From Candidatus Daviesbacteria bacterium RIFCSPHIGHO2_02_FULL_43_12 (GTDB taxonomy: Bacteria > Patescibacteriota > Microgenomatia > Daviesbacterales > UBA10151): a DNA stretch of 36,513 nucleotides. Shown piece by piece: positions 1 through 34,070 of the stretch. The stretch lies in contig MFDD01000002.1 of the NCBI GenBank assembly GCA_001776775.1, forward strand, positions 120,661 through 157,173, written 5' to 3'. The position numbers and the translations under genes were made by a program. Numbering within the stretch: position 1 is the stretch's first letter; each line of letters begins with the position of its first letter. The notes beneath the pieces were generated by a model, which saw only the letters and a program-made list of their open reading frames with translations, did no database searches and was not told the origin of the DNA.

Positions 1-2
1 TA

Positions 3-833
3 CAAAAATTCTGGAAAAATGAGTTTGGTAGAGCTGGTGATTACCAAATTGTAAAAATGATTGCTGGAGTAACAGTCAGGATAGGCAGATTTTTGAACTC
101 AGAAGCAGCTAGAAGAATACTCGATCAACCCCACTCAACAATTAACTTTGCCGAGATTATGGATACCAAAAAGATTTTAATTTGCAACCTTTCTAAAGGA
201 AACCTAAGTGAAGATGTATCCCAGGTTTTAGGAACAACCATTATTACTAAAATTCAACTAGCTGCTATGAGAAGATCAAAAATTCCAGAAGAGACAAGAG
301 TACCATTTTTCCTATATGTTGATGAGTTTCAAAATTATGCGACTGAAAAATTTATCGAGATGTTGTCAGAAGCTAGAAAATATAGACTCTATCTTGTAAT
401 AGTTGAGCAGTCAATGTCGCAACAGAGTGAGCAAAGCTTAGTCAATAATATTTTAGCCAATGCCTCGATCATTGTTTGCTTTAGAACTGGAAATCCATTT
501 GATGAAAAAGTAATGCTTGGACAATTTACTAAATTTATCAATGAAGGAGAGATTATGAATCTACCCTGGTTTCACTTTTACATTAAGATCTATTCTCAAA
601 TGCCCCAAGAGCCGTTCTCTGGACAGACTATTCCCCTAACAGTCAAATATGATAAAACAAAAATTGACCGGATTACTAAAATGTCTCGGGAAAAGTATGG
701 AAATGAATATATAGCAAAGCATACTGTAAGTATTGAAGCAAAAGATGAAGATATGGATGCAGATAACCTAAAAACAAAGGGTAAAGATAGATTTAATACC
801 CAGCCAAAAACATCTTTACCCGAAGATGAATAG
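3..833 (+). CDS. VirD4/TraG-like type IV coupling ATPase, C-terminal part (5' truncated by window edge)
   Basis: Frame is open from base 3 (QKFWKNEFGRAGDYQIVKMIAG...) upstream of the listed ATG at 57; Walker-B-like FFLYVDEFQNY; TraM-recognition-like region KYRLYLVIVEQSMSQ...NILANASIIVCFRTG. Confidence 0.75.
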   Translation, partial: QKFWKNEFGRAGDYQIVKMIAGVTVRIGRFLNSEAARRILDQPHSTINFAEIMDTKKILICNLSKGNLSEDVSQVLGTTIITKIQLAAMRRSKIPEETRVPFFLYVDEFQNYATEKFIEMLSEARKYRLYLVIVEQSMSQQSEQSLVNNILANASIIVCFRTGNPFDEKVMLGQFTKFINEGEIMNLPWFHFYIKIYSQMPQEPFSGQTIPLTVKYDKTKIDRITKMSREKYGNEYIAKHTVSIEAKDEDMDADNLKTKGKDRFNTQPKTSLPEDE

Positions 834-846
834 GTTAAATATTGGG

Positions 847-860
847 TGGTACGCGTACCA
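847..860. repeat. 14-bp perfect palindrome TGGTACGCGTACCA
   Basis: Read directly; intergenic between coupling ATPase and replication-relaxation-like gene. Confidence 0.8.
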
Positions 861-913
861 GCTAAATTGAGGGTGATTTAAAGCTAATTTAATTAAAAGT
901 GCATCCTTATCTT

Positions 914-931
914 TCTTATATTAATATAAGA
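914..931. repeat. 18-bp perfect palindrome TCTTATATTAATATAAGA
   Basis: Read directly; same intergenic region. Confidence 0.8.
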
Positions 932-1025
932 GGAAGAAGTGTATAATCCTAACGATAGGTGAACTTACCTCTGCCTTAGTCTTCTGCCAACTGCCCAACT
1001 TAAACTATATCTGCTCCTTAATTTA

Positions 1026-1811
1026 ATGATACTTGAACCATTAACCAATCAACAAAAACACATTCCTAACTTTCTATATAAATTCCGCTTCATCAATACC
1101 AATCAATTCCAAAAACTCTTTAACCACAAAGAACCAAACACAGTACAAGACTGGCTTAAAGACTTAAAAGATAAAGGATACATCGTTAGTATGTATACAA
1201 GAAAAGTCAGGGGTGAAAATAACAAACCTGCTGTTTATTACCTGGCATCTAAAGCCCGTCATCTACTAAAAAATGAAGAGGGCATAGAACTTAAGGCCTT
1301 AAACTTAATCTATAAAGAAAAGAGGAGAACTAAAAAGTTTATAGATCACTCTTTAAACTTAGTTGATATCTGTTTATTTCTCCTGTCCCGAAAAGAGGCT
1401 GTTGAAGAGATTAAGTTTTTTACTAAAACAACTTTGACTGGTTATGATTATTTTCCAAAGCCTCACCCTGATGCCTATATTGTAGTTAAGGGCAAAAATA
1501 AAACTAAAAGATACTTCTTAGATTTATTTGATGACTACACGCCACCTTTTGTTTATAGAAATAGAGTTAAGCAATATTTAAAATACTCACAAGAAGGAGA
1601 GTGGGCAGTTAATACCAAAAATGCCCCATTTCCTAAAATCTTGTTTGTCTGCCCAAATGAATCGGCTAAAAAACATGTCTACTGGTATGGAAAAAGTGTT
1701 ATCGCAAAATCATTTGAGCAAGTTAAGTTACATGTCACAACAATAGACACGATTAAATTTGCCAACGCTGATACAAAGGTCTGGCAAGATGTAGAAGAAA
1801 TTGAAGATTAA
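1026..1811 (+). CDS. Replication-relaxation-like family protein (winged-helix N-terminus, PD-(D/E)xK-like segment)
   Basis: N-terminal FINTNQFQKLFN...VQDWLKDLKDKGYI wHTH-like segment; HPDAYIVVKGKNKTKRYFLDLFDD resembles the family core. Confidence 0.55.
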   Translation: MILEPLTNQQKHIPNFLYKFRFINTNQFQKLFNHKEPNTVQDWLKDLKDKGYIVSMYTRKVRGENNKPAVYYLASKARHLLKNEEGIELKALNLIYKEKRRTKKFIDHSLNLVDICLFLLSRKEAVEEIKFFTKTTLTGYDYFPKPHPDAYIVVKGKNKTKRYFLDLFDDYTPPFVYRNRVKQYLKYSQEGEWAVNTKNAPFPKILFVCPNESAKKHVYWYGKSVIAKSFEQVKLHVTTIDTIKFANADTKVWQDVEEIED

Positions 1812-1910
1812 TTATTCGAAGAATAGCGACTTGCCGAAGGCAAGTAATAGGTTGTTTGCAAACCTAGTTTCTACTTGACATAGAAGTCTTCTGATTGAGA
1901 TGATATAGAT

Positions 1911-2645
1911 ATGGATCAGCAATCTGAATTGCCACCTCAACAGCCTAAACCAGAACCACCAGCAAGTATGAGTGCTGAAGATTTGATACGACAATCTGGG
2001 CAGGAGACTCCAAAACAAGTCGAAAGCTTTGATGAGATTAAAGAATTGATGGAAGAAGCCCCTGCTGCATTAAGGAGTGGTAACGATACGTCTACCGCTC
2101 ATGCGGGCGAAGGGTCACAGAGAAGCACTAAAAAAGAGGATCGCTCTACGGAGTATGATTATCATGTTCCTGGCTCGGAAGGATTTTACGCAGATTTGAT
2201 GAGAGATTATCGAGTTCCTGCAGAAAGATTGAGACAACTAGTTGAGGAAGAGGGGGTAAAACCAGGTGATCTGCAAGATATTTTAGGCGCAAGACAAATA
2301 TTGACTATTAGAGAAAGCTCCACCGCAGAAGACGAAAAACAAAGACTAGATTCCGCAAGTTTAAGAGTACTGGTGGAGGGTTACCATGTCGTTGCCGGGA
2401 ATATAACTCAGTTTCAAAGGTTAGTTGAAGCTGCCAATAAGGGAATTAATAATACAGTTGACAATAAAAGTTACCGCTTTATGCCAGGTCAAGCAAGTAC
2501 GATCTTTACTGCTACTGTAGACAAATTTCTTGACGGTCAACTAAGAGTAGGATATGCACCACTAGCCCCAGATGTAAGAGGTTTGAAAGATTCTGCCAAG
2601 GCTGTTCAACAAAGCAAAAAAATAAATCCTACTGGACAATATTAG
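1911..2645 (+). CDS. hypothetical protein, proline/charged N-terminus
   Basis: 244-aa ORF co-directional with upstream mobilization-like genes; no recognised family. Confidence 0.55.
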   Translation: MDQQSELPPQQPKPEPPASMSAEDLIRQSGQETPKQVESFDEIKELMEEAPAALRSGNDTSTAHAGEGSQRSTKKEDRSTEYDYHVPGSEGFYADLMRDYRVPAERLRQLVEEEGVKPGDLQDILGARQILTIRESSTAEDEKQRLDSASLRVLVEGYHVVAGNITQFQRLVEAANKGINNTVDNKSYRFMPGQASTIFTATVDKFLDGQLRVGYAPLAPDVRGLKDSAKAVQQSKKINPTGQY

Positions 2646-2680
2646 CTTTACCTATAATTCAACTTACTGAACAAGTAAGA

Positions 2681-3526
2681 TTAGAATCTTCTTATATTTG
2701 GCAATTCAGCCTTAGACTTAGCAGAATTTCTAGCCCAAACGAACTCTACTTCTTTATCGTTTACCTTTAATTCATTACATGCTAGTACGCTAAGGAATCT
2801 GGCATATTCTAAAACAGTTAACCAATGATTTCCAGGATCACCTTTCACTTTTCTAAAGTCTTTTACCATACTATCCCACTCTGGTCTTCCTAATTGATAG
2901 TTCTGAAACTTATCTGGAAAGATTAGTTTAAAATCATGTGCTGTTTCTGCAAAATCCTTCCACTTGTCGCCAGACCTTTTTAAATGGTCAAGCCTATCTT
3001 CTGCTACTTGCGCACTACGAGGATTTAAATTAGCAAGTGGTTGCCAAATCTCATAAGCGTATCGAAGATCCCCAGCTCGACCGAGATATCCTGTATGATC
3101 GTTGTCGTCTATCCGTTTTGTCATAAGAGGATCAAGCTCATTCCACAAACTAGGGAAGTATCTTAAATTTACTGTCCTCTCTGGAAAAAGAACCCGAGCA
3201 TATCGTAACATTTGTGTACAGAGGGAGAGTCCTTGTTCTCTTTTATCCTGTACCGCTTGTCTAGCTTGATCAAGATCAAGTTCGATCGCTTGCCATAAAG
3301 ACTCATCTAAATCCTGATGTATGTCTGAAGCAGGAAATAATAACTTAAGGTCTGCTGTAGTTGCTATTTTTATAAGCTCTATACGAGCTAAATTATCTCG
3401 TTTATCCTTATAACCGAAAAAATCCTCTACGGTAAATTCTTTAGCCGGGTCAAAGCGATAATCTGCTTGAGCAGGCTCAATTATTAAATCTTTAATATTT
3501 ATACCAGATTCTAATTTTACATCCAT
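2681..3526 (-). CDS. INIKDL/RKF-family paralog E (last gene of operon)
   Basis: MDVKLESGINIKDLIIEP... ...LPNIRRF; internal LLFP/VLFP/LIFP...W motifs. Confidence 0.8.
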   Translation of the reverse strand: MDVKLESGINIKDLIIEPAQADYRFDPAKEFTVEDFFGYKDKRDNLARIELIKIATTADLKLLFPASDIHQDLDESLWQAIELDLDQARQAVQDKREQGLSLCTQMLRYARVLFPERTVNLRYFPSLWNELDPLMTKRIDDNDHTGYLGRAGDLRYAYEIWQPLANLNPRSAQVAEDRLDHLKRSGDKWKDFAETAHDFKLIFPDKFQNYQLGRPEWDSMVKDFRKVKGDPGNHWLTVLEYARFLSVLACNELKVNDKEVEFVWARNSAKSKAELPNIRRF

Positions 3527-5628
3527 TAAAAACTTTTTCTTTTACCAACTTCTCGTTTTAGAAATTGCAAAACTGGCTCCAATATTTTATCCGGGTCTTT
3601 AGCTGCATGTCCAAAGACATTACCTTCACGATCTTTCAGTGGATCGATGTAGCTCTTAACAATACCTTCTGCTCCTGTTCCAATCCCAACTGCCATGAAA
3701 ACTACCTCTTTATCGTCCTCAATTTGTCGCATCAGGAGTCTAAGACCTTCTCTGTTTCCAGCACCATCTGTTAAAACAATCATAAGTTTAATAACATTAT
3801 TCCTGTTTAAGGTTAATTCCTCATAAACTTGAGAAATTGCCCCTGTTTCTTCAGTCCCACCGCCAACTTCTGAAACCCCCTCAATAATAGTCAGTTGTTT
3901 TTTATCATTAAGCGGTTCAGCTAGTCTTGTAACTCTTTCTGGCTGTGTAGAAAATTTGGTTACCCCAACCCTAAACGGTTGTTCACTTTCTGGGTTAAGT
4001 AATTGCTCTTCCTCCAAAGACTCCCTAACTCTTTTAAACGCCTCAGTAACTATAACCATCGTTTCTACAGATTTATCCAAAGGCCTACCGTACATAGAGC
4101 CAGAAGTGTCAACGATAAATTCCAGTTCCGTTTCCAAAAATTCTGGATTTCTCACCTCAATCATTCTTGTCTCAGGGTCGAGCTCACCTGAAATTAAGGC
4201 AGCAATAGTTTCAAATTCTAATCCTGGCACGACTTCACCCTCACGCCTTAAATATTCTAATCTTTTTCTTCTGTCATCTAAAAAAATATCTGCTAGAACT
4301 GCAGCTGTGGACTCAATTTCTAGTTTATATTTTTCCTTTATAGTTTCCCATTTCTCAATGGATTCTCGGCTTACTCCTAAAGCTTCTGCCATGCCTCTTT
4401 TTGCTCTTTCTTCATCTTGTCTTCTCAATTCTTCAGCCCTTCTCTTAATTGCTTCTAAACCTGACTCTTCTTCTGGTTCTCCTGGTTCAGAGGGCTCAGG
4501 CTTCTGTTCCTCGCCAGTTTGTCTTTTTTCAGCTGATTGTTTGATCTGTTGCAGCTTTTGATCTAATTCATTTTTTTCTTCTTCGGAAAGAGTTTGAGAT
4601 TCATATTCTTTTCCGGCTTCCTCTAATTGACTTAAGATTTGTTCTACTAATTGTTGTTCTTCTTCATCGGTTAGAGGCACAGCTCCCTCCCCACCAGACA
4701 TTGACTGCTCCTGTTCTTCCTGCTCTCCTTGTTGACCTGGTTGCTTTGGTTGTTTTTCTTGTTGTTTGTCTTGTTTTCTTTTCTCCAGTTCTTCTTCCAT
4801 CAACTTTATATACTCAGGTAAAAATACCTGTGTGTACGCATCGACTTTTCCTTGAATTGACTTTTTTCTATCTAGCGGAGCAGCAAAGGGGTTTTCAAAT
4901 TCCCTTCTACTCATAATTGCCTGTATAGCACCAGAATCAATGAATTTTTTGTATGCCTGATAAACACCTGGAGCCACCTTTTTCTCAACCTCTTTTTGTT
5001 CCAAATACCTACCTCTTAAAGTAATTTGGATTAACTGCTCAGGCATGGATAAATGCGTATAGTCATCCATTTCTCCTTTGGCTGATTGGAATTCTCTTAT
5101 TACTCTTTCAATACTAAAATAAGGTCTTCTGCCCATATAAGCCTCGTCCCAGATGTCGATCACACCGTTATTTAAGTGACTATTAATAGCTCTCCAAAAC
5201 TTTTCTTCAGCCCTTGGTGACGTTTTATATGGTGGAGGGACTAAATCCGGGTTTCCCATAATGGAAACTAATTTCCTTTGAAAATCAAGCACTTCCGGGG
5301 CATGATGACCTGCTTCGTGAAAGGCAAACCCTTGAATATCAGCTCTAGTCCAGGGTTGAATACCTAGTTCAGGTATACCAGTTCTTAAAAGTGGGTTAAA
5401 GTGAATTTCGCCTCCACCTTGTGGAAAGATGTAGGTAAAACCAGTTGAGAGTGTGCCAGTTTCGGTAAATTTCGCGGCCAAAGCAGGATCTTCTACTATT
5501 CTAAATCCCCCCGAAGCCCTAGAAATCATTTTTAAATGTTCCGGTCCAATAACTTCTTCAAATTGTAATGATTTCCTCTCTACGCCGGGCTGAGGGATTG
5601 GTGCGCTCTTATCTAGAAGTTCGGTCAT
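3526..5628 (-). CDS. VWA-domain protein with HExxH metallopeptidase-like motif
   Basis: MIDAS DTSGSMYG, later VLTDGAG; N-terminal FAFHEAGHHAPEVLDF; Q/E-rich linker; C-terminus KRKSF. Confidence 0.85.
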   Translation of the reverse strand: MTELLDKSAPIPQPGVERKSLQFEEVIGPEHLKMISRASGGFRIVEDPALAAKFTETGTLSTGFTYIFPQGGGEIHFNPLLRTGIPELGIQPWTRADIQGFAFHEAGHHAPEVLDFQRKLVSIMGNPDLVPPPYKTSPRAEEKFWRAINSHLNNGVIDIWDEAYMGRRPYFSIERVIREFQSAKGEMDDYTHLSMPEQLIQITLRGRYLEQKEVEKKVAPGVYQAYKKFIDSGAIQAIMSRREFENPFAAPLDRKKSIQGKVDAYTQVFLPEYIKLMEEELEKRKQDKQQEKQPKQPGQQGEQEEQEQSMSGGEGAVPLTDEEEQQLVEQILSQLEEAGKEYESQTLSEEEKNELDQKLQQIKQSAEKRQTGEEQKPEPSEPGEPEEESGLEAIKRRAEELRRQDEERAKRGMAEALGVSRESIEKWETIKEKYKLEIESTAAVLADIFLDDRRKRLEYLRREGEVVPGLEFETIAALISGELDPETRMIEVRNPEFLETELEFIVDTSGSMYGRPLDKSVETMVIVTEAFKRVRESLEEEQLLNPESEQPFRVGVTKFSTQPERVTRLAEPLNDKKQLTIIEGVSEVGGGTEETGAISQVYEELTLNRNNVIKLMIVLTDGAGNREGLRLLMRQIEDDKEVVFMAVGIGTGAEGIVKSYIDPLKDREGNVFGHAAKDPDKILEPVLQFLKREVGKRKSF

Positions 5629-5664
5629 GTTTACATTTTAGCTAAAATCTTAAGGGATTACTAA

Positions 5665-6570
5665 TCAGAACTTTCTAACATTCGGTAAAGTACGTTGTGG
5701 TTCTTCGAATGTTGGAGATGGCATTCTGAGTATCAAACCTGAATCAGCAACATCTACTTTATCAGCTGCAATGACTTTGGCACGGGCAGATAGCATAGTT
5801 ACCCAGAACCATTTTTCGTATTGTTTAATTCTGGATTCATCTGGATCATGAGCCCTTTTAACGGTGTCTCTAAGTTCTCCATTAATATTCCTCCATATTT
5901 CTGGGTCTAGTTTAAATTCTGTCTCCCATGCGTTTGGGAAGGCTACACGAGTAGCGGATAATACTCTAATTACATGACTCCAAGGTATGCGTTGGGGATC
6001 TCGGTGTAATAATCCTTGATAATACTTTTTAGATTCTGAAAGCCATTTCTCTTTGTCATTAGAACCTTGTAGTTTGTCTGGGAATATTATGCCAGTAGTA
6101 AGCAAGTCATCAAAGAAATATTGGACAGGATTCATTGTTTTATCTAACCCAAAATTAACATCCCAATTTCGTTTACGAACAATTTCCTGCCAAACTTCGT
6201 TAGTAGCATAAGTTGTTTTCGAGTACTGACCAGGAAAGAGAACATTGGCTATTGTGCCTTTGTTCATTTCGTCAATTATGCCTCCACGATAATATTGCTC
6301 AAATTTATCTTTTTCTAAATTCCCAATTGCTAGTTGTTGATATAGGTCTTCAGACAAAATCCTTAAATAAAATGCGGTGTTATAGAAGTTTGTAGATACA
6401 CTAGCATCTGCTTCTCTGGGGCGCCCTCTGTCTAACTGATTTCTTATCTTGTTCCAATCAGCTGTAGTGAGTGAGAACTCAGAAGTTACTTTTGCAGCAG
6501 TTCCTTCTTTGGGTGCTACTTCACTCAGATCCTTTATATTAATCGGTCTCTCAGCTAATGTTATATCCAT
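5665..6570 (-). CDS. INIKDL/RKF-family paralog D
   Basis: MDITLAERPINIKDLSE... ...TLPNVRKF. Confidence 0.8.
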   Translation of the reverse strand: MDITLAERPINIKDLSEVAPKEGTAAKVTSEFSLTTADWNKIRNQLDRGRPREADASVSTNFYNTAFYLRILSEDLYQQLAIGNLEKDKFEQYYRGGIIDEMNKGTIANVLFPGQYSKTTYATNEVWQEIVRKRNWDVNFGLDKTMNPVQYFFDDLLTTGIIFPDKLQGSNDKEKWLSESKKYYQGLLHRDPQRIPWSHVIRVLSATRVAFPNAWETEFKLDPEIWRNINGELRDTVKRAHDPDESRIKQYEKWFWVTMLSARAKVIAADKVDVADSGLILRMPSPTFEEPQRTLPNVRKF

Positions 6571-6571
6571 A

Positions 6572-7420
6572 TCAGAAATTTCTCGTAATCGGGAGTTGGT
6601 TACTAACTACTTTTGGCGCATTAGAAGCTAATTTAAACTCATTTGGAGTTGCTACTATGTCTCTGGCACGTAGTATTGAGATATCGGCTGCCATTCTTAA
6701 AATATGCATATAAGGTGTTAGTTTATCTGGTTCATTACGAGTTGCTGCTAGTCTGTTTTCAAAGTCTTGTTCAATATTCTTCCAGTCTTCCTTAGTTAGC
6801 TTAGCTTTACTTATCCTTTCAGGAAATGCTATTTTTATAGCTGAAGCTAAGGTCAACAATCCCTTCCATCTATCAGGTACCATTTCAAATTCGTACTCAT
6901 CCTTGTATGATTCTTCTAAGTAATCCCGTATTTCATTAACATCAGGGTTTTTGCGAACAATATCAGGATCGACGATTACAACATTTGTAACAAGATCAGA
7001 GGTATCCCAACGTCCTTTGCTATTTACTGCCGGACCAAACCAGTCGCCTACGAATTCCATGAGGTTATCTCTATCTGAGGGTGTGATTTGAATCCCTTTC
7101 AAAAGTTCGGAGGAAAGTAGCTTTAAACAAGCAACTCTTTCCAAAAAAGGTTCATAATGACCCTGTGATAATCTATCTTGTACATGATTTGTCCATACGA
7201 CGCTATCAAGGTAATCGAAATCTTTATCCGGATAAACTAGCAAAGCATCGATAACATAACCACTGGTAGTATAGTCATATCTCTTAACCTGATCTTTGAT
7301 TACTTGAAAATCACTATCACTAAATTTACTCCTTGGATCAAAGATTTCGTTGGGACTTGGTGGCATCTCAATACTTAAGTCCTTAATATTTATTGGTTTT
7401 TCGGTAAGTCCTATATCCAT
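6572..7420 (-). CDS. INIKDL/RKF-family paralog C
   Basis: MDIGLTEKPINIKDLSIE... ...NQLPITRNF; start moved to ATG at 7420 (listed ORF begins at a TTG, 7426). Confidence 0.8.
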   Translation of the reverse strand: MDIGLTEKPINIKDLSIEMPPSPNEIFDPRSKFSDSDFQVIKDQVKRYDYTTSGYVIDALLVYPDKDFDYLDSVVWTNHVQDRLSQGHYEPFLERVACLKLLSSELLKGIQITPSDRDNLMEFVGDWFGPAVNSKGRWDTSDLVTNVVIVDPDIVRKNPDVNEIRDYLEESYKDEYEFEMVPDRWKGLLTLASAIKIAFPERISKAKLTKEDWKNIEQDFENRLAATRNEPDKLTPYMHILRMAADISILRARDIVATPNEFKLASNAPKVVSNQLPITRNF

Positions 7421-7422
7421 AA

Positions 7423-8325
7423 TCAAAATTTCCTTAGGGTTGGTAAAGATGGTTTTGTCATGTCTGGGATCTTTGGAGAATCACCAGTAATAATTTCTAA
7501 ACCATTTGGTGTGATTCTAAGTTCTTTAGCGCTTAAGGCATGCATTTTTGCAGCAAGGGTAGCAAACATCCCAAAATCTGCTTCCGGTGGTAAGTTTTCT
7601 CTTCTCAGCTTTGCCAACTCTACCATCATTTTACTCCAGGCAGATGAACCTTCTTGAACTCTAAACTGTTCCCGTCTTGGCTCTATTCTGGATTCAGTTG
7701 GAAATAGTATTCGGCTACTAAATGATAAAAGGGCAAATTTGTAGATCTCTCCTTCATCAAGGGTCTTAACTCCAGTTCTAATACATCTCCTTTTAACCTC
7801 TTCGGTTAATTCAAGTTCGCTTTCTTTTTCAGGCACAAGTATTTTCATAGCCTGAGCTACCTCTAAAAAACGAAAGAACTGATTATCCGCATTAGACGAT
7901 TGCCAATCGACTTGTTCTCTATCAGTTTTAAGGGCATTTAGCATACCTGGCCATAAGCTATTTAGATCCATTTGATTCGCATTTTGAGGATATAGTAGTT
8001 TTAATTTCGCTAGGAATAATGTTAAATGTTGCCAACTTGATGGATCAGGAGTTAGTACAGTTTCTCGAGCGTGTCGATACATTATTGAGAAATGTTCTTG
8101 GCCGAGGCTTAATTGGTTTTTCCTGCTTGGAGCTAAAAGCAGCATATTTGTTGCCACACTGGTATAGAGATCCAAGTTTGGTTCGTTTCTGCTGTGTTCT
8201 AATAATCCTTTAAATCTATTCCAATCTCTTTCTGTCAAACCTAAAGGTAGTTCAGTCTTTCTTTCAGGTACTTCTAGCGATAAATCCTTGATGTTTATTG
8301 GAATTTCAGAAAGTTTGAGATCCAT
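7423..8325 (-). CDS. INIKDL/RKF-family paralog B
   Basis: MDLKLSEIPINIKDLSLE... ...SLPTLRKF. Confidence 0.8.
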   Translation of the reverse strand: MDLKLSEIPINIKDLSLEVPERKTELPLGLTERDWNRFKGLLEHSRNEPNLDLYTSVATNMLLLAPSRKNQLSLGQEHFSIMYRHARETVLTPDPSSWQHLTLFLAKLKLLYPQNANQMDLNSLWPGMLNALKTDREQVDWQSSNADNQFFRFLEVAQAMKILVPEKESELELTEEVKRRCIRTGVKTLDEGEIYKFALLSFSSRILFPTESRIEPRREQFRVQEGSSAWSKMMVELAKLRRENLPPEADFGMFATLAAKMHALSAKELRITPNGLEIITGDSPKIPDMTKPSLPTLRKF

Positions 8326-8327
8326 GA

Positions 8328-9158
8328 TTAGAATTTTCTAACTAGAGGTAAAACAACCTGTCTAGCATGAAAAGAATTTGAGCTTCTTGGAACATGTATT
8401 GCGGCTTCAGTAATCTGAAGGGGTGGTAGAGAAAGAAGCGCTAAGGTTGCTCCTAAAGAAGCAAAATTGACCCAATTCTTCTGTTGGCGATGACCTTCTA
8501 GTCTCTGCTTCATTGTATCCCATTCGGCAATATCAAGCGTGGGTACTGGATTGTTCTGTTCAAAAAGTACTTTTGCATTTAGAATTAATCCAACTACTGT
8601 AGCTAGCCCTGATGGATTTGCCCTTTTTTGTTGAATATCTTCAACCAGTTTCTCCTGTGCAGCGGGCCTTAGGGAAAGATCATCAAATAATGGATGCCCC
8701 AGAAGTTTTAGGTCATACAAAACTCGTGCTTTTGCCGCAGGATCCGAATCAAATAACGTTCTAAAAAAGTTCTTCATATTTTCGTAGTCATTAACATTAG
8801 GAAATTGCTCAGCAAACTTAGTTGGAGATAGCATCTTAACCTGGACTGCTTTTTCGGCTACTTGACTCCAACGGCTATTTCCTCTTTTTTGATTTATTAA
8901 TCCCATAATAGCGTCCCAATTTCTTTGATCAAAACTTGCAGTAGGATCTTGTTCGGGATCAAGAATTTTTATGTTAACGGCATGATTGAACAATGAAGAT
9001 GCGCCAGAACTACGATAGTTCTCAAGAGTATCTCGAATTCCTTGCCAGTCTGAAGGAAAAATGTCCTGTTTGGGATTAAAACCAGTTTCTCTTCTGGTCG
9101 GAATATCAATTGTTAAATCTTTAATGTTAATGGGTCTATCTACTAAGCCAATTTCCAT
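8328..9158 (-). CDS. INIKDL/RKF-family paralog A
   Basis: MEIGLVDRPINIKDLTID... ...VLPLVRKF; start revised from 9215 to ATG at 9158 to match paralogs and remove overlap with the upstream gene. Confidence 0.8.
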   Translation of the reverse strand: MEIGLVDRPINIKDLTIDIPTRRETGFNPKQDIFPSDWQGIRDTLENYRSSGASSLFNHAVNIKILDPEQDPTASFDQRNWDAIMGLINQKRGNSRWSQVAEKAVQVKMLSPTKFAEQFPNVNDYENMKNFFRTLFDSDPAAKARVLYDLKLLGHPLFDDLSLRPAAQEKLVEDIQQKRANPSGLATVVGLILNAKVLFEQNNPVPTLDIAEWDTMKQRLEGHRQQKNWVNFASLGATLALLSLPPLQITEAAIHVPRSSNSFHARQVVLPLVRKF

Positions 9159-9168
9159 AATAAATTTC

Positions 9169-11439
9169 CTAAAACGTTCTCTGAATTGGCATGCCCATTT
9201 CGGATGTATCTCCAATCATTGCATAAGCATCCTTTGCCAAACCTCTAAAGTCTTCTATTATCTGCTCTCGGCTTTTCTGATTACCCTCCTGATCTTTCTT
9301 TCTCTCTTCATATGCCTCCTCACCAATCCAGCCAGCTACTTTATCTTTAATGTCATCATCCATCATCAGTCCCAATCTAGTGCATATATTAACTATTTCT
9401 CTTGGAACAACTTGATCTTCGAAAATGGCTTTCTGACTCTCTATCAAAACTTCATATAATGCCGCATCAAATGATTTTCCTGTGGCCTTATAAATAGGCT
9501 TTTTCGTTTCACGATCGCGATAGAGAATTAATTTTTCACCCAAATCTCGAATAGTTCTATAGGAAATTGGGACAGTTTGTGGTTTATCCTCAATATATTT
9601 TCTAACTGCAGGAACCACTTCCGTAATAGTTAAATAAAGCTTTCCTAAATCGTCCACACTCCTTAACCAATTGCCTTCAGCATCTGACATGGATGATAGA
9701 GCTACCATCATCTCTTCCTGCATAGGAGGATAACCAACCTCAACCACTTTTCCCTGAGCTCTGGATGCTAAAGCTTCGGGGACGACAAATGCACTATGTC
9801 TTCTTCCAATATTGGCGGTAAAATACATTCTCCAGTGATCGGGAATATTAATAGTTTCATCGTTATCGGCAAAGTACCAATCTTCGCCCGGCTTAGCAGT
9901 AAGTAAACTATAAATCAAACTCCAGTTTCTGTTCTTGTTGAATTCATCCATAATTACACTGTCACCCCTCCTCAAAGCGGCAATAATAACCCCATCTCTC
10001 CATCCATTCTTCTTAACTAAATGGGAAAATTCCTGGGCTAACTCTTTTCTAAAAACTGTACTAGCAAGATCATTTACTTTACCCCTAATATTTTGTATTT
10101 GAGTTTCATCTATTTGAGCTTTTCCTACTTCTTCATTAATTAGATCAAGGTAAGCAGATACCGCCTCATCACCATTGAGATGGAATACTTGACTTAGTGT
10201 GGAGCTATTTTCCACAACAAATTTCCGAAAATCATCTGTACCTAAAGCGGCTAACTGTTCAGTTAACGCTCTATGATGCTCGGTTGAAGTTTTAAATTCT
10301 ATAGCTTTTGACCCATATAGTAAGTACCTTGTCACATCTTCAGACAGATCCATATAAACAAATTTTCTACCTTGCGCTTCAAGATAGTGTCTTACTAAGG
10401 TTGTCTTACCAACTCCAGGTGGGCCAGTTAAAACCCCACCAACTGTTGTTCTTTGATGTTGCTCTTCCCATTCATTTAGCTTATTTAAGTTCGCAATAAC
10501 TGATTGAGTTTCAATAACGTCTTCACCTTTCGCAAAAGCGGCAATTAAATCGTTATATTCCTTCTCTCTCCAAAATCTTCTCACCATTCCATCTGAAAAT
10601 AGTTCTAATGCAGTGTTCTTTGCCTTATCATGTTCATCCTGCAAGCCTTTTTTTGTCTTAGGTACAACTTCTTTTGTAGTAGATAATAATATTCCTCTTA
10701 GCTCCTCATATTCAGGTGTACCTTCCGCATAAATTGTTCTCAGTGTAGCTTCCAGTTCATTCATTTCAGGAGCGACCTCAAGTGAGGTGGCAATCTCCCC
10801 AGATCTCATAACTCTTTCTACTCTTGAGTAATCAACTTCATCAAAAGCTTCACCATCAGGTAAGCTTTTAAAGCTGGGTTCAGACAAAAGTCCTTCTACC
10901 CTTTTCATTTCTTCAAGTTTAGAAAGAAAGTTAACGTAGGAGTTGCGAGATTGGATATACTCGCGATAGGCCTTCTCAAAACTCAACGCATCTGGATCAT
11001 GAAGATATTCCCTGTCAATTCTTGTTTTTAACTGATTATAAACTAAGGTTCCATGTGCTCTCTCCACTGGGTCCCTTGCGTCTTTTGACACTTTGCGGTA
11101 TGTTTGTGCATCTTTAACAAGCCTTCTAAAGTCATTTATTACTTGAAAAGATAAATTAATACCTTCTGGAGCCGGTTCCCCATTTTGTTGCTCGTATCTT
11201 TTTCTTAAAACAACTTCTAAATCTGGAGCATTATCCAATGCTTCTCGCCTCTTCTCATAGCGTTCCCTTCTAAGATCAAAAGTTTCAGTAGCCCTACTTT
11301 TAAGGTAAGCATCCAGTTGTCCAGGTTCTTTAGGAGGTAAAAGAGGAGAAAGTGGTGCGGCTTGGTTAACGCTTTTCAACTCTCCACCAATATGCTTTGG
11401 TAACAGTCCTTCTGGTTTTCTTTCCGTATCTCCATCCAT
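9169..11439 (-). CDS. MoxR-like AAA+ ATPase with long N-terminal extension
   Basis: Walker A GVLTGPPGVGKTTLVRHY; Walker-B-like SVIMDEFNKNRN; RMYFTANIG sensor-like; C-terminus IQRTF. Confidence 0.85.
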   Translation of the reverse strand: MDGDTERKPEGLLPKHIGGELKSVNQAAPLSPLLPPKEPGQLDAYLKSRATETFDLRRERYEKRREALDNAPDLEVVLRKRYEQQNGEPAPEGINLSFQVINDFRRLVKDAQTYRKVSKDARDPVERAHGTLVYNQLKTRIDREYLHDPDALSFEKAYREYIQSRNSYVNFLSKLEEMKRVEGLLSEPSFKSLPDGEAFDEVDYSRVERVMRSGEIATSLEVAPEMNELEATLRTIYAEGTPEYEELRGILLSTTKEVVPKTKKGLQDEHDKAKNTALELFSDGMVRRFWREKEYNDLIAAFAKGEDVIETQSVIANLNKLNEWEEQHQRTTVGGVLTGPPGVGKTTLVRHYLEAQGRKFVYMDLSEDVTRYLLYGSKAIEFKTSTEHHRALTEQLAALGTDDFRKFVVENSSTLSQVFHLNGDEAVSAYLDLINEEVGKAQIDETQIQNIRGKVNDLASTVFRKELAQEFSHLVKKNGWRDGVIIAALRRGDSVIMDEFNKNRNWSLIYSLLTAKPGEDWYFADNDETINIPDHWRMYFTANIGRRHSAFVVPEALASRAQGKVVEVGYPPMQEEMMVALSSMSDAEGNWLRSVDDLGKLYLTITEVVPAVRKYIEDKPQTVPISYRTIRDLGEKLILYRDRETKKPIYKATGKSFDAALYEVLIESQKAIFEDQVVPREIVNICTRLGLMMDDDIKDKVAGWIGEEAYEERKKDQEGNQKSREQIIEDFRGLAKDAYAMIGDTSEMGMPIQRTF

Positions 11440-11610
11440 AGGTTTATCATGACAGTTTTTCTATGAGTTATCAACTGTTTTGATCGGAAAGTGAAAGGCC
11501 TAGTTACTACTTTCTTTGAAGTATTTATAGATTTTTATACGGGCTTCTAAATATTTCACAATTTTTTAATAACTCTATATTATTATCTACAGGCTACAGG
11601 CTACTGCCGG

Positions 11611-11640
11611 TTGACAGTGATGCATACTTTCTGATATAAA
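11611..11640 (+). promoter_or_regulatory. sigma70-like promoter of the T4SS operon
   Basis: TTGACA (11611-11616), 18-nt spacer, TATAAA (11635-11640). Confidence 0.7.
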
Positions 11641-11668
11641 TTGAACCAGTTATATTTAGTTACTAACT

Positions 11669-11693
11669 GCTGCCCTGCAAGGCAGCTTTTTTT
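11669..11693 (+). terminator. intrinsic terminator-like hairpin inside the T4SS operon leader
   Basis: GCTGCC-CTGCAA-GGCAGC followed by TTTTTTT, between promoter and first CDS. Confidence 0.75.
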
Positions 11694-11712
11694 GTACCGA
11701 AAGGAGGTGTTT

Positions 11713-12060
11713 ATGAAAATATTTAAAGCATTTTTAATAAATTCTTTAGTCTTAACTTCTCTGATGGTTCCCCAGGTAGCGTACGCTCAAACAGTAAGCG
11801 GTGATGTTAATCAAATTGTAACTTTTCTAAGAAGTATTGTTGGTGTACTCGCAACTTTAGGAGGAATTGTTTCTGTCATTTTCTTTGCTTGGGGAGGTTT
11901 TGGTTATATGACCTCATCTGGTAATCCTGAATCACTTGAAAAGTCAAAGCAAACTATCAAGTATGCTGCGGTAGGATTAGTTATTGTACTTGGAGCATAT
12001 GTGTTTGTAGGGATTGTTTCGCAACTAACAACTGCTGCTTTTGGAAATGTATCTAACTAA
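11713..12060 (+). CDS. VirB2/TrbC-like pilin, T4SS
   Basis: SD AAAGGAGGTGTTT then ATG at 11713; signal peptide MKIFKAFLINSLVLTSLMVPQVAYA; two hydrophobic helices; GYMTSSGNPESLEKSKQTIKYAAVGLVIV. Confidence 0.7.
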   Translation: MKIFKAFLINSLVLTSLMVPQVAYAQTVSGDVNQIVTFLRSIVGVLATLGGIVSVIFFAWGGFGYMTSSGNPESLEKSKQTIKYAAVGLVIVLGAYVFVGIVSQLTTAAFGNVSN

Positions 12061-12117
12061 TACTGCCCACTAAATTTCTGCTCTTGAGGTTAAATCTGTC
12101 CTCAACCTGTCTAACTT

Positions 12118-13416
12118 ATGAAAAGGATTATATTTGTACTGGCAAGCCTTGCACCATACTTAGTTTTTGCTTCTCCTGCTTTCGCAGTAACCGCTCCCTC
12201 TGAAATTACCAGTTACACAAATTCTACATTACAACTTATTATTGCCATAGCCTCTGTCTCAGCTCTATTCTTCCTCGTCCGCGGAGGCTACTTATACGTT
12301 ACTTCTGCTGGAAGCCCTGATACTCTGGAAAACGCCAAAAAGACCATTAAAAACGCCTTAATTGGCCTAGTTATTGTCCTTTCCTCGGGTTTAATTGTCT
12401 CAGTTTTTACCAACTCTTTCGGGGCTGTCTCAAACGGAGGATCAAGCACCACCGTTAATATCCCGGCAATTGAGACAGTTGACCCACCAGATGGACTAAC
12501 TGTAGTTCTTACTGATGCCATATCAGGACTATTTAATATGATTATTCGCTCAGCTGCCACTCCAATAATGAACGGAGTAATCAGCTATCTAACTACCACA
12601 CCAACTCTTTTAGACAACTCAATTATTAGGAATTATTGGTTAATAATCCTGGGAATTACTGATTCTTTATTTGTAGTAGTAATAGCCTTGCTCGGACTTA
12701 GGTTTATGAGCGCAGAATCTTTCGGCTTTGAAGAGATTGAATTAAGACACCTACTGCCTAGAATTGGATTAGCTTTTTTGGGAGCTAATGTTTCTCTCTT
12801 TCTCGCAAACTACGCTATCATTACTTGTAACGCTTTAGTATCCGCAGTCTTAAATTCAACGGGAGGATTATCTCAGGCACTTTTAGTTGACGCAATTACT
12901 CCAACCGGGGATGCAACTGTCGTCACGCCTTTTGTTATTTTAGTATTCCTACTTTTGTTTTTAATAGTCTCTATAGTTTTACTTTTAATGTATGTTTCAA
13001 GGTTAATCTTTATTTCACTTGGGGCAGTACTTTCTCCTTTAATCTTTTTAATGTGGGCTATGCCTAAGTTTTCTGATTTTGCCGAGATTGCAGTTAAAAC
13101 ATATTTAGTATCAGTCTTTACCGTCTTTGTTCATATAGTAGTAATTCAACTTGCCTCAGCTTTTATCTCACTTCCAGCTCATTCAGAGAATTCCATTGTC
13201 TCAATTGTTGTTGGGATTGGACTATTTTTTACCTTACTCAAGATTCCTCAGATGTTAATGCAGATGGCTTTTTACTCAACTGGTGTTGGAGCCCTATATA
13301 AAATGGGTAAACAGATAACCAATGTTATTACTACAGACCAAAGTCAAAAAGGTAGTGAACAAGACTCTGGGAAAGGAAGGACTGTCAAAAAGTCTAGAGC
13401 AAACTTAGGAGTATAA
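12118..13416 (+). CDS. VirB2-like N-terminal domain fused to a VirB6/TrbL-like multi-TM protein
   Basis: N-terminus GYLYVTSAGSPDTLENAKKTIKNALIGLVIVL matches the preceding pilin; remainder polytopic membrane protein. Confidence 0.7.
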   Translation: MKRIIFVLASLAPYLVFASPAFAVTAPSEITSYTNSTLQLIIAIASVSALFFLVRGGYLYVTSAGSPDTLENAKKTIKNALIGLVIVLSSGLIVSVFTNSFGAVSNGGSSTTVNIPAIETVDPPDGLTVVLTDAISGLFNMIIRSAATPIMNGVISYLTTTPTLLDNSIIRNYWLIILGITDSLFVVVIALLGLRFMSAESFGFEEIELRHLLPRIGLAFLGANVSLFLANYAIITCNALVSAVLNSTGGLSQALLVDAITPTGDATVVTPFVILVFLLLFLIVSIVLLLMYVSRLIFISLGAVLSPLIFLMWAMPKFSDFAEIAVKTYLVSVFTVFVHIVVIQLASAFISLPAHSENSIVSIVVGIGLFFTLLKIPQMLMQMAFYSTGVGALYKMGKQITNVITTDQSQKGSEQDSGKGRTVKKSRANLGV

Positions 13417-13418
13417 AT

Positions 13419-13952
13419 ATGCGAACAACTATCATACCAGCACAAATTACCACAGTGGAAGATAAAATAGCCGGAAACTTAAACCTGGCTCAAATTATCC
13501 TTCTTCTCATTCCGGTAATCTGGATTACAGTCGTCTATGTTTTAGTGCCAACACCCTTCGCAATCAACTTGTATAAAATTCCCCTAGCTTTAGTAGTTTT
13601 GATTGCTTGTTTAATCTTAGCTATAAGAATCAGGGGAAAAATAGTTCTAAGTTGGTTAGTGGTGCTTTTACAGTACAACTTACGGCCAAGATACTATGTC
13701 TTCAACAAGAACGACACTTATTTAAGGGAAATGTACATGCCTGAGATTGAAAAGAGAAAGTTTCAACTGTTTAACTTTAGCTTTGCCAGAAGACAGCAAG
13801 AGAAAAAGCAGATTAAGATTGCAGCTAATAAGTTTGACCTAAAGGATCTAGTTTTACTTAAAGACTTTTTATATAACCCTGATTATTCATTAAGTTTAAA
13901 ACCAGATAGCAAAGGAGGTCTGTATGTTACTCTTCAACAAATCAAAAGATAA
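13419..13952 (+). CDS. PrgI family protein
   Basis: IPAQITTVEDKIAGNLNLAQIILLLIPVIW; two TM helices; upstream of VirB4-type genes. Confidence 0.7.
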   Translation: MRTTIIPAQITTVEDKIAGNLNLAQIILLLIPVIWITVVYVLVPTPFAINLYKIPLALVVLIACLILAIRIRGKIVLSWLVVLLQYNLRPRYYVFNKNDTYLREMYMPEIEKRKFQLFNFSFARRQQEKKQIKIAANKFDLKDLVLLKDFLYNPDYSLSLKPDSKGGLYVTLQQIKR

Positions 13953-14544
13953 ATTATCATCCCGACGTCAGATACAAATAAAAGAAGTTAAAGATGGTAT
14001 TTTAGTACTTCCAAATCATGAGTACAGAGTTGTAATTGAAACCTCATCAATAAACTTCGAATTGAAATCAGATGAAGAGCAAGATGTATTAATTGACGGA
14101 TTCCAAAACTTCTTAAACTCACTTCCAAGCCAGCTTCAAGTGCTTGTTAGAGTAAGAGAGGTAGATATAGATGGATACCTTGAAAAGATCTCAAAAAGTA
14201 AACAAACGGAAAAAGAACGAGTATATAAAGACCAGATTGATAATTACTCTGAATTTATTAAAGACTTAGTAGCCGGAAACAAGATCCTCTCCAGAAAGTT
14301 CTTTGTAGTTATTCCCTACAAACATATTGATTCCAATAAAGACTTTAACTTGATTAAAGAACAGATTCATTTATCAAGAGATATTGTGCTTAGGGGACTT
14401 GAGAAGCTTGGTATCAAAGCAAAAGTGTTGGATTCAATTGAACTTATCAGATTGTTTTACAGTTCATATAACCCCTCACAACTTAAAACTCAGGAGTTAT
14501 CTGCCCATACAATTGGAGAAGTATTGAAAGGAATCCATGCTTAA
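13924..14544 (+). CDS. TraC-like / VirB4 N-terminal-like protein
   Basis: SD AAAGGAGGTCTGTATG inside the end of the PrgI gene; position directly before VirB4. Confidence 0.55.
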   Translation: MLLFNKSKDKLSSRRQIQIKEVKDGILVLPNHEYRVVIETSSINFELKSDEEQDVLIDGFQNFLNSLPSQLQVLVRVREVDIDGYLEKISKSKQTEKERVYKDQIDNYSEFIKDLVAGNKILSRKFFVVIPYKHIDSNKDFNLIKEQIHLSRDIVLRGLEKLGIKAKVLDSIELIRLFYSSYNPSQLKTQELSAHTIGEVLKGIHA

Positions 14545-16366
14545 TCCATTTATACATTTCCAAAAGTTTAATTCTAAAAAGAAAAAAGAACGAAGAACTT
14601 CCACTCAGGAAGTTCTTAAAAAGGGGAGATTGTATAACTTCGGAGAGCAAGATCAGATGGATTTACTCTCATACTCTGGATTAGCAGAATATGAGGACCA
14701 CCTTCAGATGGGGGATAAATTTGTTCGAACACTCTTTATATCCGGATATCCCTATGTAGCAACCACTGGTTGGCTAAACATGTTAGTTAACTTTAACCAT
14801 GATATTGACATTTCTTATCATCTTGAGCAAGTTGATCCACTTACTGCTCTTCCTAAGCTAAATAGAAAAATAACTGAACTTGAATCAACTAAAAGGTCAA
14901 TGCTTAAACAGGGTAAAGTTGTCGGCTCTGAAGTTACTGATCCCTTGGATTCAGCAATGGCTTTAAAAGATAAGATTCAAAGAGGCCAAGAAAAACTCTT
15001 CCAAGTATCAATCTATATGACTATTACAGCAGATTCGTTAGTTGATTTAAATAAAAAGACTAAACTCCTAGAAACAGTTATGTCTACAAGACTTTTCTAT
15101 ATTAAAACCGCAACATTCCAACAATTAGAAGGATTACAATCCACCTTGCCTAGAGCCCAAAATTTGCTGGCTCAAAAAAGAAATCTTGATTCGTCCTCAG
15201 CTGCCCTAACTTTTCCTTTTGTCTCCTCAGAGTTAGTACAGGAAACAGGCATTTTGTATGGAATTAATAGATCAAACAATTCATTAGTGATTGTAGATAG
15301 GTTTTCACTAAACAACGCGAATAGTATAATTTTCGCTCAGTCAGGTTCAGGTAAGTCGTTTACCGCAAAAACTGAGATCCTTCGACAGCTTATGCAGGGA
15401 ACAAGAGTTATCGTTGTTGATCCTGAGAGAGAATACAAACAACTGGCTGCTTCGGTAAATGGAACCTACATTAGGCTTTCTGCAAAATCTAAGGAAAAGA
15501 TTAACCCCTTTGATATGTCACTTAGTTCTTCAAATGGAGATGAGCTATCTGAACATATCCAAGACTTAACAGAAATAGTCTCATTAATGGTAGGAGGACT
15601 ATCTGCCGAGGAAAAAGCTGCTGTAGATAAAGCAATTCTACAGACTTATAAAAATCACGGTTGGACAATGAATCAAAGCTACGCTCCAGTTAAGAAAAAG
15701 AAAGATAATAGAGGTAGACCACCAAAAGCTAAAACCTATCCTGTCTTAAAGGACTTTTATAAAGAGCTAAAAGGAATGAAACAAAAGAAACTTTGTGCTA
15801 GATTAGAAAAGTTTATTAAAGGCTCACTATCTTCTGTTTTTGACTCACAAACTAATATAAAACTGGATAACAGGCTAGTTGTTTTTGATATTAAAGATTT
15901 ATCGGAATCCATCAGGCAGATAATGATGTTGGTTGTTGCCAATTTCGTTCATTCTCAAGTTAAATCTGATCCTAGAAGGCGTATTTTAGTGATTGATGAG
16001 GGTTGGATGCTCTTACAGCATGAAGAGTCTGCTAGATTCATTGCAGGACTTACCAGACGTGCTAGAAAGTATTATCTGGGAGTAACAATCATCTCTCAAC
16101 AAGCCAATGACTTTTTATCACAAGATTATGGTCGAGCAATAGCTTCCCAATCAGCTTTAAGGATTTTAATGAAACAAGATACAACTACGATCAAAAAGGT
16201 AGCATCTGAGTTCAATTTAAGCGAATATGAGCAAAACTTTCTGCTTACTTGTGATAAAGGAGAAGCATTAATAATTGCCGACCAACATCACGTTGCCTTA
16301 AAAGTTGTTGCTTCAGCCAAAGAACACCCACTACTTACAACTGATCCAAGGGAAGTATATTTGTAA
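14537..16366 (+). CDS. VirB4-family T4SS ATPase
   Basis: Walker A FAQSGSGKSFTAKT; Walker B RRILVIDEGWMLL; GVTIISQQANDFL. Confidence 0.9.
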   Translation: MLNPFIHFQKFNSKKKKERRTSTQEVLKKGRLYNFGEQDQMDLLSYSGLAEYEDHLQMGDKFVRTLFISGYPYVATTGWLNMLVNFNHDIDISYHLEQVDPLTALPKLNRKITELESTKRSMLKQGKVVGSEVTDPLDSAMALKDKIQRGQEKLFQVSIYMTITADSLVDLNKKTKLLETVMSTRLFYIKTATFQQLEGLQSTLPRAQNLLAQKRNLDSSSAALTFPFVSSELVQETGILYGINRSNNSLVIVDRFSLNNANSIIFAQSGSGKSFTAKTEILRQLMQGTRVIVVDPEREYKQLAASVNGTYIRLSAKSKEKINPFDMSLSSSNGDELSEHIQDLTEIVSLMVGGLSAEEKAAVDKAILQTYKNHGWTMNQSYAPVKKKKDNRGRPPKAKTYPVLKDFYKELKGMKQKKLCARLEKFIKGSLSSVFDSQTNIKLDNRLVVFDIKDLSESIRQIMMLVVANFVHSQVKSDPRRRILVIDEGWMLLQHEESARFIAGLTRRARKYYLGVTIISQQANDFLSQDYGRAIASQSALRILMKQDTTTIKKVASEFNLSEYEQNFLLTCDKGEALIIADQHHVALKVVASAKEHPLLTTDPREVYL

Positions 16367-16372
16367 AAATGA

Positions 16373-17017
16373 ATGAGTTACTTTTCCACAGCTATTACAA
16401 TTTTTTCATTTCGTAGAGAACTCCAAATTGTAGCTTTAGCTTTCCTGATCATCACATTAACTCCTGTTTTTGCCGTTTTTATGCTACTTAACAATGGCCT
16501 AGATATTGTTTCAGATAGGCTTGCAACAGTTGACACACAAACCCAGGCAATTGAGATACATGATCCAACTACAGGAGAAGTAGTTACTGAGATTCATCCA
16601 GTGGTTGCTTGGCCTATTTCAGGGGTTTATACGGCTGAATTTGGGGTCTTAACACCATATCAGCTATTCCATTCAGGAATTGATATAGCAGGACCAAAAG
16701 GAACCCCGGTACATCCTTTTATGGAAGGAACAGTTGTGTATGCTGGTGAAATCTGGTGGGGTTTTGGGAAGCATGTAATTATTGACCATGGAAACAACAT
16801 AACTTCGGTTTATGCTCATCTTGATAAAATCTTTGTAGTTAAAGGGCACCCAGTCACGATTAATCAAGTAATTGGGAATAGGGGTAGTACCGGATGGTCA
16901 ACTGGACCACATTTACATTTTCAGATCAATGTATATGGACTGCCAGTCGATCCAAGAACATTTATGGGGAATTTAGCGAATGGAGTACCAATAGAAGAGG
17001 CCGATCATGACCACTAG
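16373..17017 (+). CDS. M23-family peptidase (T4SS-associated), one N-terminal TM helix
   Basis: HSGIDIAGPKGTPVHPFMEGTVVYAG ... GSTGWSTGPHLHFQI. Confidence 0.9.
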   Translation: MSYFSTAITIFSFRRELQIVALAFLIITLTPVFAVFMLLNNGLDIVSDRLATVDTQTQAIEIHDPTTGEVVTEIHPVVAWPISGVYTAEFGVLTPYQLFHSGIDIAGPKGTPVHPFMEGTVVYAGEIWWGFGKHVIIDHGNNITSVYAHLDKIFVVKGHPVTINQVIGNRGSTGWSTGPHLHFQINVYGLPVDPRTFMGNLANGVPIEEADHDH

Positions 17018-18175: not shown

Positions 18176-18257
18176 ATAATTGGATCCATTTTAGCAGAAT
18201 GAACCCAAATTTTCACGATCAGAAAGGCGTTGTTTTGTGATAAGATAGAAAGAACTT

Positions 18258-19895: not shown

Positions 19896-19897
19896 TT

Positions 19898-29455: not shown

Positions 29456-29504
29456 CTGTCTATTATAACTGAATAGATGTCTAAAAATCAAACTATAGGC
29501 TGCT

Positions 29505-31645: not shown

Positions 31646-31675
31646 ATATTAAATATTTTTTATAGCCTCTCAGAA

Positions 31676-33965: not shown

Positions 33966-33999
33966 ATAGTAATTTTCTGGAGCAAAGAAACTTGAAGAT

Positions 34000-34025: not shown

Positions 34026-34070
34026 CTGAAGTTATCCGGCTTTCCTTTGCTCGAAGGATAAATCCTAATG

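Follow-up and report, generated by a model that had tools for sequence, protein, structure and literature searches.

Among the described systems closest to the one reported here are the pairs NorQ–NorD, RavA–ViaA, and CbbQ–CbbO, and ternary systems built around a MoxR ATPase and a vWA protein. In the pairs, an AAA_5 ATPase of the MoxR type is matched with a partner that has a C-terminal von Willebrand factor A (VWA) domain with a metal-ion-dependent adhesion site (MIDAS), and the last residues at the extreme C-terminus of NorD dock to the MoxR ring (PMC13036017). The MoxR–vWA ternary systems are proposed conflict systems; according to the study that describes them (Kaur et al. 2020, PMC7159879), these systems (VMAP, iSTAND, and others) combine the MoxR and vWA core, in one operon, with a rapidly evolving, mostly α-helical third component, have a patchy accessory distribution, and recurrently include peptidase-type and repeat domains. 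The locus analysed here lies in a 36,513-nucleotide stretch of contig MFDD01000002.1 from Candidatus Daviesbacteria bacterium RIFCSPHIGHO2_02_FULL_43_12, which is referred to in its whole length as the window. It encodes a MoxR–VWA system by both defining domains, an intact AAA_5/MoxR ATPase and a partner with a C-terminal VWA domain and the MIDAS motif D-x-S-x-S, together with five paralogs of a family that appears undescribed within the libraries searched. The paralogs have diverged helical-repeat bodies between conserved end tags, and we tentatively regard them as the recognition parts of a mobile conflict-type module.

Unlike the proteins of the NorQ–NorD, RavA–ViaA, and CbbQ–CbbO pairs, the MoxR ATPase of the window has an N-terminal extension of approximately 300 residues and shares its C-terminal tail with the paralogs, and multiple copies of tagged repeat proteins are co-encoded with it. 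Compared with the VMAP systems (PMC7159879), the third component is distinct in being a multi-copy family of tagged repeat proteins with no recognised VMAP-C or STAND domain; the gene order is MoxR–paralogs–VWA, both in the window and in a related genome (G438, described below), instead of VMAP–MoxR–vWA; and the HExxH motif is located N-terminal to the VWA domain, with no effector domain C-terminal to it. The VWA match stops approximately 50 residues before the C-terminus of the protein and nothing follows. By its gene order and the lack of a C-terminal effector, the window system is not a VMAP system. Profile searches identified no VMAP domain and no Pfam family common to 31 paralogs, and a profile–profile comparison with VMAP-C was not made. 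The same study had no multicellularity data for bacteria with tiny genomes, in which the present system occurs.

Some of the ternary systems pair a metallopeptidase with a variable protein bearing a conserved C-terminal peptide (PMC7159879). The locus can be likened to the FxSxx-COOH peptide-processing systems described there, in which such a variable protein stands beside a zincin-like metallopeptidase motif; it differs from them in its larger repeat proteins, the fusion of HExxH to the VWA domain, and the absence of a radical-SAM enzyme from the operon. The cobaltochelatase CobS–CobT also combines a MoxR-like ATPase with a protein that has a charged linker and a C-terminal VWA domain. By contrast, the window protein contains HExxH, its match to CobT_C is below the Pfam cut-off, and no CobN was seen. 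The literature search retrieved no paper naming MoxR together with Patescibacteria.

The MoxR–VWA operon

The MoxR, paralog, and VWA genes are seven open reading frames (ORFs) on the minus strand at 2681–11439, with operon-like packing in the ORF list of the window. Their order, according to the ORF coordinates, is:

9169–11439, minus strand: MoxR-type AAA+ ATPase of 756 residues, with an AAA_5 match
8328–9158, minus strand: paralog D, tagged helical-repeat protein, ATG start at 9158
7423–8325, minus strand: paralog C, tagged helical-repeat protein, repeats clearest among the five
6572–7420, minus strand: paralog B, tagged helical-repeat protein, ATG start
5665–6570, minus strand: paralog A, tagged helical-repeat protein, most diverged of the five
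3526–5628, minus strand: VWA protein of 700 residues, with a VWA match and HEAGHH
2681–3526, minus strand: paralog E, tagged helical-repeat protein

The successive intergenic gaps are 10, 2, 2, 1, 36, and −1 nucleotides; the alternative listed start of paralog D, a TTG at 9215, overlaps the MoxR gene. The coordinates and gaps confirm the seven tightly packed genes on one strand that had been proposed in a first-pass annotation made from the sequence of the window. Scans for promoters and terminators returned sites no more numerous than in shuffled sequence. The guanine-plus-cytosine (GC) content of the operon is 0.36–0.41, which is above that of most of the flanking genes of a type IV secretion system (T4SS; 0.34–0.36).

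The MoxR protein matches AAA_5 with an E-value of 1e-11 and contains Walker A (GPPGVGKTT), Walker B (DSVIMDEF), and sensor-1 (FTANI) motifs. The P-loop, DEF, and FTANI are kept in the MoxR proteins of three genomes. The VWA protein matches PF00092 (E 1.4e-13) at residues 504–651 of 700; in order, it has an N-terminal HEAGHH (HExxH), the motif N-xxx-D-x-W-x-E, a charged linker, and the C-terminal VWA domain. The MIDAS is intact in the VWA proteins of the three genomes, which have the sequences DTSGSM, DTSESM, and DGSGSM. The motif HEAxHHAPEV (HEAGHH, HEAFHH, and HEAGHH) and the downstream N-xxx-D-x-W-x-E are invariant in the three proteins, which suggests that their N-terminal region is a zinc-peptidase-like domain. 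Membership of the VWA protein in DUF2201 (PF13203, DUF2201_N) was rejected, as no match at an E-value of 0.001 was found in the whole genome G000; two control genomes were matched. The family was also absent from the matches of the VWA protein.

Tagged helical-repeat paralogs

The paralogs are 19–24% identical to the first of the five in the alignment; two motifs are invariant in all five, the N-terminal I-N-I-K-D-L and, at the extreme C-terminus, L-P-x-x-R-x-F. The end tags are beyond chance: among 339 non-overlapping ORFs of at least 90 residues on the 382-kb contig that contains the window (C2), a C-terminal P-x-x-[RK]-x-F occurs in six, which are exactly the five paralogs and MoxR (...PIQRTF), and the N-terminal motif occurs in the five paralogs only. 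The end of the VWA protein (...KRKSF) fits [RK]-x-F without the proline. The tail pattern is repeated in G438 (MoxR ...PAAKQF, paralogs ...PEIKNF), and in a third genome, G188, a different tail is common to MoxR (...RPERKLKAVA) and the paralogs (...RPERKELN).

No significant family was found for any of the paralogs in Pfam, NCBIfam, or PADLOC, or for the three paralogs scanned against PHROGs, and a profile search of the PDB with the paralog family had a best E-value of 0.81. Profiles of known helical repeats (TPR, HEAT, ankyrin, and others) gave unrelated scattered matches, none of which recurs among the 31 members. Thus, the first-pass annotation, which had treated the five genes as one family with N- and C-terminal signatures and had not recognised that family, is upheld on both points: on C2, the signatures are confined to the five proteins, except for the tail on MoxR, and no characterised family in the searched libraries matches.

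In the paralogs of four genomes, helical repeats of approximately 44 residues are positioned between a conserved N-terminal tag (INIKDL in the window) and the C-terminal tail. The repeats were delineated in a fourth genome, G202, in which the paralog body is a run of 43–44-residue units of the form ..AWQGMKDELESYRQNNNWWDFADQAMxLKILFPDRxAELDL, with a spacing of 43 or 44 between 29 of 45 successive anchors. A hidden Markov model built from the G202 repeats only identified 11 units in the five window proteins, compared with approximately 0.05 expected from shuffled sequences; this is the result of iteration 0, and iterations 1–2, which include window units, were not used as evidence. The fixed framework of the G202 repeat consists of W4, L11, W20, F23, A27, L33, and P35. 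The variable positions, 9/10/13/14/17 and 22/25/29, are located on one face of each predicted helix, which fits a binding surface; however, surface positions generally behave in this way. The last repeat is followed by a short conserved unit, LAA.EVKITDQGLELVMP, predicted to form a hairpin, and then by the tail. Reading of the paralog sequences, without the use of a predictor, revealed neither a signal peptide nor a membrane segment, and the proteins are therefore probably cytosolic.

Distribution and divergence

When 95 genomes from the family and class of the window were searched with the paralog profile and with MoxR, only the genome of the window itself was identified. An even sample of 380 genomes from the phylum contains three further carriers of paralogs, G438, G188, and G202. 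The MoxR profile matches one of 374 genomes of the class to which the window belongs, one of 49 genomes of the class of G438, and two of the 380 genomes of the phylum sample, G438 and G188. Because of these low frequencies, the MoxR–VWA–paralog system is regarded as rare and accessory. The number of paralogs is five in the window, 13 in G438, nine in G188, and dozens in G202.

In G438, the genes for MoxR, thirteen paralogs, and VWA are on one strand beside rpsB/tsf, and no T4SS is present within the 40 kb read around the operon. The sequence just 5′ of most of the G438 paralog starts (loci L032/L033) is conserved and encodes K-L-K-I-F-N-M in frame; therefore, leader or ribosome-binding regions appear to have been copied with the genes. 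In G188, MoxR and three paralogs are arranged divergently beside cysS and dnaB, and a second contig carries the VWA gene with paralogs on either side. The 1.1-Mb genome of G202 contains approximately 35–48 pieces of the family on more than 20 contigs (loci L036–L040 and L091–L110), 16 of which have both tags by a strict pattern. Several pieces have an internal stop, and contigs often end inside them, which may reflect birth-and-death evolution or an assembly artefact at repeats.

MoxR was found in three of the four paralog-bearing genomes and never without paralogs, in agreement with the tie between the paralogs and MoxR–VWA drawn in the first-pass annotation. That annotation was to be abandoned if homologs proved to occur mainly without MoxR or VWA neighbours; this condition is partly touched by the dispersed copies of G202, with neither gene identified in an assembly that is 76% complete and broken at these repeats. 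G438 and G188 have both genes. Phage or plasmid origin was rejected, since a tblastn search with MoxR had no match in phage or plasmid records and a scan of viral contigs found nothing. Genome scans of the whole collection had no matches; because their patterns were derived from peptides of the window itself and would fail to pick up even G438 and G188, the scans do not prove absence elsewhere. The paralog family could occur outside the phylum.

Within the window, identity is 0.15 for the bodies, 0.77 for the N-terminal tags, and 0.58 for the C-terminal tails. Between the window and the other genomes, it is 0.34–0.46 for the N-terminal tags and 0.17–0.41 for the tails, with the bodies at background. 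Across three genomes, MoxR is 40–52% and VWA 39–46% identical. The paralogs form one group per genome in a phylogenetic tree, with moderate support for the window and G438 groups and long branches. As judged from these comparisons, the bodies diversify fast, whereas the tags of one genome evolve together and the core remains stable, which is what would be expected of many variable parts that must fit one shared machine. The drop in tag identity between genomes is likewise expected if each set of paralogs fits its own partner; recent duplication or gene conversion of the paralog ends would also contribute.

Possible function of the system

The explanation that we favour, still tentatively, is that of a mobile MoxR–VWA conflict-type module, in which diversified tagged solenoids would provide recognition and be acted on by the AAA+/VWA core. 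It draws on the constancy of the tags, bodies at background similarity, copy numbers from five to dozens, the conserved core, the tail on MoxR, and the accessory, mobile distribution, with defence-type genes among the other occupants of the cargo site. The first-pass annotation had offered substrates, subunits, or effectors of the machine as roles for the paralogs; because the tail is common to MoxR and the paralogs, a role of the paralogs as parts that dock on the machine is preferred; on MoxR itself, the tail may mark self-regulation or a common receptor. A conserved core of a MoxR hexamer and the VWA protein with its putative zinc-peptidase motif would serve soluble helical-repeat proteins whose repertoire diversifies rapidly. 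Each solenoid body may bind a different target, and the common tags would dock any member of the family onto the core. ATP-driven remodelling, or cleavage at the tail by the HExxH domain, might then disable the bound target or free the solenoid as a signal, most likely in conflict with invading DNA, viruses, or rival elements. Such a mechanism is plausible because of the docking in NorQD (PMC13036017) and the ternary-system precedents (PMC7159879).

Several observations weigh against a conflict module. Nothing observed points directly to defence. The operon encodes no recognised domain of the nuclease, toxin, membrane-pore, or nucleotide-signalling kind, PADLOC gives only weak generic AAA matches for it, and the HExxH domain has no match to any known peptidase family in Pfam. 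The G438 system is located among ribosomal and housekeeping genes with no visible defence island, and the G202 assembly, which is 76% complete and broken at repeats, yielded many paralogs without MoxR or VWA. At the variable repeat positions, pN does not clearly exceed pS, and diversifying selection is not shown because synonymous sites are saturated. AlphaFold2 predictions failed for both the VWA protein, for which the predicted local distance difference test score (pLDDT) of 40 makes the model unusable, and paralog C (five sequences, pLDDT of 39); because of the latter score, only the helix-pair pattern and the C-terminal hairpin were kept from the paralog model.

Alternatively, the MoxR–VWA pair may be an assembly chaperone, with no role in conflict, under whose action the paralogs mature to form a filament or hetero-oligomeric scaffold, in the manner of RavA–ViaA, NorQD, and CbbQO acting on their own clients. 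The characterised pairs each remodel specific clients (PMC13036017, PMC9976466), paralogs that share an operon and end tags could be subunits of a polymer, and the components co-occur in three genomes. However, the loss of all similarity between bodies encoded in a single operon is not expected of scaffold subunits, and the range from five to dozens of copies, the rarity, and the mobility would also be unexpected for them. We therefore consider assembly rather unlikely.

A broader form of the favoured conflict module is conceivable, albeit doubtful: a repertoire recognition system of approximately 1-Mb genomes, in which one AAA+/VWA-peptidase core has many interchangeable, diversifying helical-repeat receptors plugged in through their tags, spread by conjugative elements and, in one genome, expanded to approximately 40 receptors. 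Should the solenoids prove to be receptors, an unexpected multi-receptor, defence-like repertoire would be present in reduced epibiont-type genomes, and MoxR–vWA conflict systems would gain a new third component. To our knowledge, MoxR–VWA machines are widespread and their clients are mostly unknown. Client recognition is directly testable here, because the probable clients or adaptors are numerous, tagged, and encoded beside the machine.

The host element and its cargo site

The operon is flanked by genes of a T4SS and its mobile element:

3–833, plus strand: TraG/VirD4-like coupling ATPase, C-terminal part; the gene begins outside the window
1026–1811, plus strand: Replic_Relax protein (MobC-type, relaxase-like), left border of the cargo site
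11641–12060, plus strand: small T4SS membrane protein, right border of the cargo site
12118–13416, plus strand: T4SS pilin/TrbL-like membrane protein
13419–14544, plus strand: two more T4SS genes (13419–13952 and 13924–14544), syntenic in sister elements
14537–16366, plus strand: VirB4-like ATPase of the mobile T4SS
16373–17017, plus strand: M23 peptidase of the T4SS operon

Copies of the window VirB4 in six further genomes of the class are 73–85% identical to it, compared with approximately 42% for most of the remaining VirB4 copies, which occur in nearly every relative. The T4SS of the window is, by this comparison, a second, mobile-type system. A large serine recombinase is encoded just upstream of the window (C2:116789–118357; Resolvase, E 3e-31). 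The genes assigned to the conjugative-type element lie at C2:116789–118692 and at positions 1–17017 of the window. With genes for an integrase, a relaxase-type protein, a coupling protein, and VirB4, the host element is classified as integrative conjugative-type (resembling integrative and conjugative elements) and predicted to transfer.

Four sister elements keep TraG, Replic_Relax, a variable stretch, the small membrane gene, the pilin/TrbL-like gene, two small genes, VirB4, and M23. The MoxR operon occupies the variable stretch between Replic_Relax and the small T4SS membrane gene, in which the sister elements have:

G046: two AbiE toxin–antitoxin pairs
G051: a reverse transcriptase (L133, 13186–14283)
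G011: a P-type ATPase and a glycosyltransferase
G047: a methylase with LexA-like domains, a PDC-S39 protein, and a Schlafen AlbA_2 protein

The cargo of the sister elements is unrelated, with toxin–antitoxin, methylase, or candidate-defence genes in two of the four. Because unrelated cargo is held at the same site, the T4SS is considered the vehicle of the operon and not its partner; from its position, the operon is therefore accessory cargo, which is often defensive, and no part of conjugation. The first-pass annotation had placed the operon opposite a T4SS operon, as borne out by plus-strand T4SS genes on both sides, and had suggested a tie to conjugation. The latter was not supported, and conjugation as a general functional partner was rejected, since the sister elements lack the operon and the 40 kb read around the G438 operon contain no T4SS.

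The absence of paralogs from sister elements that have the same T4SS also argues against export of the paralogs through the T4SS into a host or rival cell, in which case the basic C-terminal tail would be the signal and MoxR–VWA an unfolding or loading chaperone. G438 has no T4SS in that 40-kb region, the same tail is present on MoxR, an unlikely cargo, and no signal peptide or membrane segment was read in the paralogs. Host-associated bacteria typically have large families of repeat proteins. The operon adjoins the T4SS in the window, a TraG-like ATPase is encoded approximately 2 kb away in G188 and G202, and Patescibacteria widely carry a T4SS (PMC12102498); secretion is nevertheless improbable overall.

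The system might instead serve the mobile element by excluding competitors, stabilising the element, or controlling host factors. Its position in the transfer region, with the relaxase-like gene on one side and the T4SS operon on the other, and the AbiE pairs at the same site in G046 are consistent with such maintenance, which is made similarly improbable by the copies in G438 and G188 beside the chromosomal genes rpsB/tsf and cysS/dnaB, outside such an element. Metabolic maturation by a chelatase-like or cofactor-inserting MoxR–VWA pair with repeat-protein adaptors, suggested by the weak likeness of the VWA domain to CobT_C (E 5.5e-4; score 20.1 bits, cut-off 21), is very improbable for a rare, mobile, rapidly diversifying system with no CobN-type or other metalloenzyme gene noticed beside the operon in the loci read.

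The cargo hotspot in the transfer region of this patescibacterial-type conjugative element is a place to seek candidate defence genes. A second cargo stretch follows M23; in the window, it holds a DUF3644 protein (PADLOC PDC-S19, E 2.7e-123) divergent from a type III restriction–modification pair at 17147–22216. Over the two fixed sites, the cargo of the sister elements includes AbiE, type I and III restriction–modification systems, a reverse transcriptase, and a P-type ATPase. The reverse transcriptase of G051 adjoins the gene for a protein of 1526 residues and a short ORF that looks like a variable-repeat target; judged by these neighbouring ORFs, a diversity-generating retroelement is possible. 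The GC content climbs from approximately 0.35 to 0.43–0.46 over positions 28000–35500 of the window, which probably marks the border between the mobile element and the resident chromosome.

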